Assembly (NCBI GenBank): GCA_020436225.1
Contig: JAGQYE010000027.1
Span: 1 to 48,475, forward strand
Reading direction: 5' to 3'
DNA length: 48,475 nucleotides
Origin: Bacteroidota bacterium
Lineage (GTDB): Bacteria > Bacteroidota > Bacteroidia > Chitinophagales > JADIYW01
Made by a program: the position numbers and the translations under genes. This document shows positions 6,454-8,117 of this stretch, piece by piece. How positions within the stretch are numbered: the stretch's first letter is position 1; every line of letters starts with the position of its first letter. The notes below the pieces were generated by a model that saw only the letters and a list, made by a program, of their open reading frames with translations, was not told the DNA's origin and made no database searches.

Positions 6454-7062
6454 ATGGTTACGTATATCTTAATTGCCATAACAGTATTGATTAGCTTTTT
6501 AGCATTCAACAATCGCAAACTTATGTCGGAGTTAATCTTTAATCCATACGTCATCCAACAAAGAAAACAATATTATCGCTTTATCACGTCGGGATTTATT
6601 CATGCCGATTTTTTTCATTTGTTTTTTAATATGTATGCACTTTATCTATTCGGAAGAATAGTAGAGCATTTCTTTCAATTGATTTTTCCCGGATATGGAA
6701 TATTGATGTATATATTATTGTATGTTTCCGGCTTAATTATGAGTGCAATGTTTTCCTTTTATAAACACAAAGAAAATCCGATGTATAATGCTTTAGGAGC
6801 ATCCGGAGCCGTTTCGGCAGTTTTGTTTGCCTCTATAATACTTTATCCTGCACAAGAGTTAATGATATTTCCTATTCCATTTTTCATTCCATCTTATATT
6901 TTAGGACCGATTTATTTAGCGTATTCGTATTATATGAGTAAAAGAGGCATGGATAACATTGGACATGATGCGCATTTTTTTGGCGCTATTTGGGGAATTT
7001 TGTTCGTCATTGTATTGTGGCACGATGCAATTCAAAACTTTATAGCACAGATGCCTTTTTAG
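6454..7062 (+). CDS. Rhomboid family intramembrane serine protease
   Basis: 202 residues, polytopic. The family landmarks are present: a HADFFHLFFNMYALYLFG stretch (residues 50-67) corresponding to the conserved His/Asn segment of helix 2, the catalytic serine in GASG (Ser117) and the catalytic histidine in DAHFFG (His174). Rhomboids cleave membrane-spanning substrates inside the inner membrane; the substrate here is unknown. The length fits the basic six-helix bacterial form without extra domains. It follows the SDR gene in the same direction, and its stop codon directly abuts the stop of the convergent oxidase-like gene, leaving no room for a separate terminator. Confidence 0.88.
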   Translation: MVTYILIAITVLISFLAFNNRKLMSELIFNPYVIQQRKQYYRFITSGFIHADFFHLFFNMYALYLFGRIVEHFFQLIFPGYGILMYILLYVSGLIMSAMFSFYKHKENPMYNALGASGAVSAVLFASIILYPAQELMIFPIPFFIPSYILGPIYLAYSYYMSKRGMDNIGHDAHFFGAIWGILFVIVLWHDAIQNFIAQMPF

Positions 7063-7686
7063 TTATTTGAAGGCAACAAAAAACAAGAGTAAATACAACC
7101 AAACTATACCTAAGAAATGCCAATAAATTCCAAAAAGATGTAATTGATATTTGGCAATTGGGTCAGTAAAATAAACAAGTGAAGTCGAAAAATCATTTAA
7201 AGTCGTCCGACTTTTCCAGTAAAAATAAGTAAGAAATATCAAGCCACCAATTATATGAATAGCATGCATGCCTGAAATTACATATAAATAAGCTGCAGAA
7301 TGTGCTTGAAATTTTTGTCCGCTATGAAATAGGAGATACCAAGCATAAAGTTGACCAACCAAAAACAAAGTGCCAAGTCCTAAAATATAGAGCAAAGATT
7401 TTTAATAAGGTTCGTATCTGTCGTTTCTAAAATGTGCTTGGGCAACTTCTACAGCAATAGAACTTGCCAACAAAATAAAAGTATTTACGAAAAAAAGAAC
7501 AGGCATTTTAAGAGTTGCTTCTTTTGTGGAAAGATGACTCATAAAATACATGAATGTCAAGCTTAAAAACATAAGTGTTGCGCCCATTAAGAAAAAATAC
7601 AACATCGCTTTGTAATTTTTGTACCGTTTCAAAACGGTATATTGAAACGTTTCTTTATCTTGTCGATGTAGTAAATCTTCTTTCAT
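7063..7686 (-). pseudogene. Cytochrome c oxidase subunit III-like gene with an in-frame stop
   Basis: Two open segments in the same frame are separated by a single TAA at 7402-7404 (codon 95 from ATG 7686). The first, 94 residues, has two membrane helices with KMPVLFFVNTFILLASS; the second, about 112 residues, has three, including LGLGTLFLVGQLYAW, AAYLYVISGMHAIHIIGG and HLFGIYWHFLGIVWLYLL. Together they match a five-helix bacterial COX3 of about 207 residues, the haem-copper oxidase accessory subunit. No frameshift or decay is seen on either side of the stop, so the change is recent, a sequencing error, or tolerated by readthrough or by reinitiation at TTG 7395. Upstream is the Fur-family gene (14-base gap, same strand). 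No other oxidase gene is in the window. Confidence 0.75.
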
Positions 7687-7700
7687 AAATACTATAAAAA

Positions 7701-8117
7701 TCAAGCATTACATAACGCACACGTTCCTTCAATAAGTAAGTTGGCACTTTCAGGTTTATATTTTTTGGGCAAATGCAATTTTGGAATTTCCAATGCATGT
7801 AAACATTCTATTTTTCCGCAATTTTTACATTTAAAATGAACGTGTTCGTCAACAGTGGAATGCGCAATGCTGTCGTGTCGGCACAAAGCATATTTAGCAA
7901 TTCCGGAATCATCGGGAATTTTGTGAATTAATCCATTTTCTAAAAAAGAAGTGAGCGTTCTGTAAATGGTGACTCTGTCGAAATGCTTGGAAAAATGTTG
8001 CTCTAAATCTGCATGCGAAAGTGCTGTTTTATGATTTTGAAAATAGCGTAAAATATCTAAGCGAACTTGAGTTATACGCAATTTATGATGTTTTAAATGT
8101 TGTTCAATTTTATTCAT
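7701..8117 (-). CDS. Fur family metal-responsive transcriptional regulator
   Basis: 138 residues with the Fur fold: an N-terminal winged helix (about 1-75, with FDRVTIYRTLTSFLENGLIHK as recognition region) and a C-terminal metal/dimerisation domain with HVHF at 92-95 and two CxxC pairs (Cys97/Cys100 and Cys133/Cys136) that would hold a structural zinc. It should repress genes when bound to metal or when sensing peroxide; the sequence resembles Zur/Fur-like proteins of Bacteroidota, but the metal cannot be read off. It is divergent from the MerC-like gene, and the 66-base spacer contains a TGCAA/TTGCA inverted repeat that is a natural operator candidate for both. The oxidase-like gene follows downstream. 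Confidence 0.88.
   Translation of the reverse strand: MNKIEQHLKHHKLRITQVRLDILRYFQNHKTALSHADLEQHFSKHFDRVTIYRTLTSFLENGLIHKIPDDSGIAKYALCRHDSIAHSTVDEHVHFKCKNCGKIECLHALEIPKLHLPKKYKPESANLLIEGTCALCNA

Follow-up and report, generated by a model that had tools for sequence, protein, structure and literature searches.

Subunit III of the heme-copper oxidases is typically, though not obligatorily, encoded beside subunits I and II, and five-helix forms of it include CyoC, QoxC and actinobacterial CtaE. In M. smegmatis, subunit III consists of two pieces, CtaE plus CtaF, of which CtaE alone contains all five helices (PMC8361435). The gene described here lies on the minus strand at 7063-7686 of a 48,475-nucleotide stretch (hereafter the window) from an uncultured, Chitinophagales-type Bacteroidota bacterium, whose genome (G000) is a draft of 141 contigs estimated to be 100% complete. 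Read through, its protein is like the five-helix proteins in profile and predicted fold. However, the gene differs from theirs in being interrupted, in lying outside any oxidase operon and in falling under the COX3 gathering score. It also resembles ordinary pseudogenes made by one nonsense mutation, in that it carries one in-frame stop, is otherwise intact and is absent from sister species. We consider the gene to be a stand-alone paralogue of heme-copper oxidase subunit III that is probably dispensable and was probably knocked out recently, by a nonsense mutation of a single base.

The gene is read in one frame on the minus strand, a strand that the initial annotation had not given. Translation of 7063-7704 yields 94 residues, from the ATG at 7684-7686 to a premature TAA at 7402-7404 (5′ part, 7402..7686, predicted helices 1-2), followed in the same frame by 112 residues ending at the natural stop, TAA at 7063-7065 (3′ part, 7063..7401, predicted helices 3-5). 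This bears out the earlier statement that the halves share a frame and are parted only by the TAA at 7402-7404, which is the sole lesion in 207 codons, with no further stop or frameshift. The TTG that had been placed two codons after the stop is indeed present at 7393-7395, more exactly as the third codon with two intervening; it is the start of no orthologue and is a hypothetical restart codon only. The minus-strand context of the stop, which borders a run of A, is TATTAAAAATCT where relatives have TAT AAA. All six intact orthologues of the same family have AAA (lysine) in this column, one base away from the TAA of the window, and across 15 aligned sequences, among which the window row is the read-through protein with the TAA displayed as K, this lysine hardly varies. 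Homologues run through this column in about 100 homologous places from 60 genomes, as had been claimed for intact family members, and none among them ends and restarts there; bar one weak, short partial match, the stop is confined to the window copy. At a cut-off of 80 residues, no other pair of neighbouring ORFs in one frame makes up a single gene anywhere in the 48 kb; the remaining same-frame pairs belong to separate genes or are shadow frames of a different gene.

The joined protein is 41-54% identical to the intact genus orthologues on both sides of the stop, end to end and ungapped, and 36% identical to the family-level orthologue in G010. An alignment of this kind had been proposed as a check by the initial annotation, and it passes the stop without a gap; the same match rules out the chance pairing of two ORFs. 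As a single sequence the protein matches Pfam COX3 with an E value of 9.3e-5 and 22.8 bits, 1 bit short of the gathering score of 23.8, and matches NCBIfam CyoC and CtaE weakly, far under the equivalog cut-offs. A profile built from the orthologues matches subunit III chains of solved structure across almost the full length (best E value 1.4e-17). Moreover, a structure model of the 207-aa read-through protein, built with the TAA read as Lys, reached a pLDDT of 88, and its top PDB matches were all oxidase subunit III; it resembles CtaE and CyoC (TM about 0.7) and also mitochondrial Cox3. These matches uphold the original call of an oxidase subunit III-like gene, and we interpret it, from sequence and model, as a diverged member of the five-helix heme-copper oxidase subunit III family. 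The stop corresponds to residue 95 of the model, close to where the third long helix (91-121) begins, and therefore the product would retain helices 1-2 only. The Asp of the YWHFVD motif is kept in more distant homologues but is absent from the window gene; in the genus-level orthologues (L005-L009, window 7063-7686) this position is Gly or Ala. The same orthologues evolve fast relative to neighbouring genes.

The window gene is a stand-alone one. A gene for a Fur-family regulator (7701..8117, minus strand) lies about 14 bp upstream of it and is a conserved neighbour of the intact orthologues; the adjacency is retained in G001, G002, G003, G006, G007 and G010. On the other side, a convergent rhomboid-family gene (6454..7062, plus strand) abuts the natural stop. 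The usual pairing with subunits I and II was not found, the neighbours being Fur, rhomboid, SDR and MerC-like genes. In the distant relatives inspected the homologue is mostly stand-alone too, and Fur is not adjacent. From their sequences and setting, the genus-level orthologues appear to form a Fur-linked subunit III paralogue that is diverging and has no oxidase operon close by.

The main oxidase of this organism is encoded elsewhere. Contig C105 of the window genome carries a complete aa3 operon, comprising subunit I, a CtaB-like gene, two intact subunit III genes and a small subunit IV-like gene. The operon's subunit III genes belong to the same family as the window gene; in contrast to it, they are intact and lie beside subunit I, and they are only about 26% identical to it. 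The window gene is thus a stand-alone paralogue, distinct from the subunit III that serves the main oxidase. The initial annotation had suggested searching the genome for another subunit III gene, and had held that the stop decides whether the cell has this oxidase subunit. The search returned the two intact copies on C105, which rule out that the cell has been left with no subunit III at all and make the latter claim misleading. A false worry is thereby removed, as the main oxidase is complete. COX1-family genes of this genome lie on C105 (aa3) and on C18, the latter gene being 703 residues long and, from its length and setting, presumably cbb3-type (CcoN-like). Two near-complete genus members, G001 and G002, retain the subunit III-like paralogue. 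In each of these the sole COX1-family gene is of aa3 type (G001:C3:62126-63562 and G002:C1:69664-71097; L039, L040), and therefore the partner of the paralogue, if any, would be aa3. On these grounds the paralogue may act with aa3.

In a tree built from seven concatenated proteins, the window genome is sister to G004 and G005 with a support of 100, deeper nodes being weak. Both of these genomes are near-complete. In G005 the gene is absent between the same neighbours, with Fur followed by the next gene across a contiguous 36-bp gap. A search of G004 found no orthologue, returning an aa3-operon-type match and a weak distant match; the corresponding gap there is 137 bp and includes Ns, and hence the clean empty site is that of G005 only. 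As the gene is missing from these two genomes and kept in other genus members, it was most likely present in the genus ancestor, lost in the closest sisters and retained as an interrupted copy in the window lineage. We looked for a conspecific genome, or for the same 20-mer elsewhere, and found neither.

The gene is intact in relatives and interrupted here. Of the positions invariant in five intact genus members, the window copy keeps 25/28 in the downstream half and 13/20 in the upstream half. On a fixed topology its branch is 2.7 times its species branch, against about 1.2 to 7 for intact orthologues. Neither relaxed constraint nor extra lesions were found, as branch lengths and conserved positions are comparable to those of the intact, fast-evolving orthologues. 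Given no second lesion, a conserved downstream half and a branch no longer than those of intact orthologues, the lesion, if real, must be recent; a long-standing pseudogene is not supported, since further lesions are absent. For scale, 5.9% of the possible single substitutions in the gene would create a stop.

The initial annotation had left three explanations side by side, namely a nonsense mutation, a base-call error, and a genuine split or readthrough gene. Our data leave the first two as live explanations and do not support the third. In the preferred account, a single-base change in the window lineage would have turned the AAA column into TAA. Translation should then end after helices 1-2 and the resulting fragment should fail to assemble; the cell would depend on the aa3 oxidase with the two intact subunit III genes in its operon, leaving a broken paralogue on its way to loss. 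We infer that the cells themselves carry the stop, that the gene no longer functions because of it and that they can do without the gene. Because the main oxidase is served by intact subunits of its own and the extra gene is missing from the two closest relatives, this would be ordinary ongoing gene loss. The main competitor, although less likely, is that the TAA arose in assembly or base calling, or is a minor population variant that the consensus took up, with the gene intact in most cells. One base, bordering a run of A, separates the window from every orthologue, and a lone consensus error would likewise appear as a single substitution; moreover, the genome is a draft in 141 contigs. The lack of a second lesion and the unrelaxed downstream half, which make a real lesion recent, fit a sequence error too. 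However, the 48-kb window holds no other split-looking gene, so nothing points to frequent sequence errors, whilst the loss of the gene in the closest sister species makes a real lesion plausible a priori.

It is far less probable that the downstream half is made, either by a restart at the TTG at 7393-7395 or by readthrough of UAA. If both halves were translated and assembled, subunit III would exist in two pieces, with the break of the five-helix form lying between helices 2 and 3. Conserved sequence is kept in both halves, and M. smegmatis CtaE plus CtaF offers a precedent for a split subunit III (PMC8361435). However, CtaE alone is a five-helix protein and the CtaF/CtaE boundary lies elsewhere (PMC8361435), and therefore it offers no precedent for the break point of the window gene. 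Nor is any of the roughly 100 homologues split at this point, no Shine-Dalgarno-like sequence is visible by inspection before the TTG, and UAA is the usual stop in this genome, where the 34 tRNAs found include none that decodes it. The least credible reading, of almost negligible probability, is that TAA has been reassigned to an amino acid, for which the one point in favour is the open frame across a single TAA. TAA ends 34 of 46 window genes, and a tRNA with a TTA anticodon is absent among the 34 found, a set from which the draft may have left out a few; on these grounds a change of genetic code and a suppressor tRNA were both rejected. A recent nonsense mutation thus remains our preferred explanation, under which the locus would offer a modest example of a Fur-linked subunit III paralogue in the course of being lost.

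A further gene of this neighbourhood, of ~190 aa (MFGLFKK...), adjoins the subunit III-like gene or Fur in relatives and is absent at the window 7063 junction. A copy lies on contig C50 of the window genome (G000:C50:53385-53963; L082 / L121) and is 89% identical to that of G005, whilst the G004 copy is 53% identical to the G005 copy. The distribution of this gene suggests a rearrangement at the window 7063 locus.
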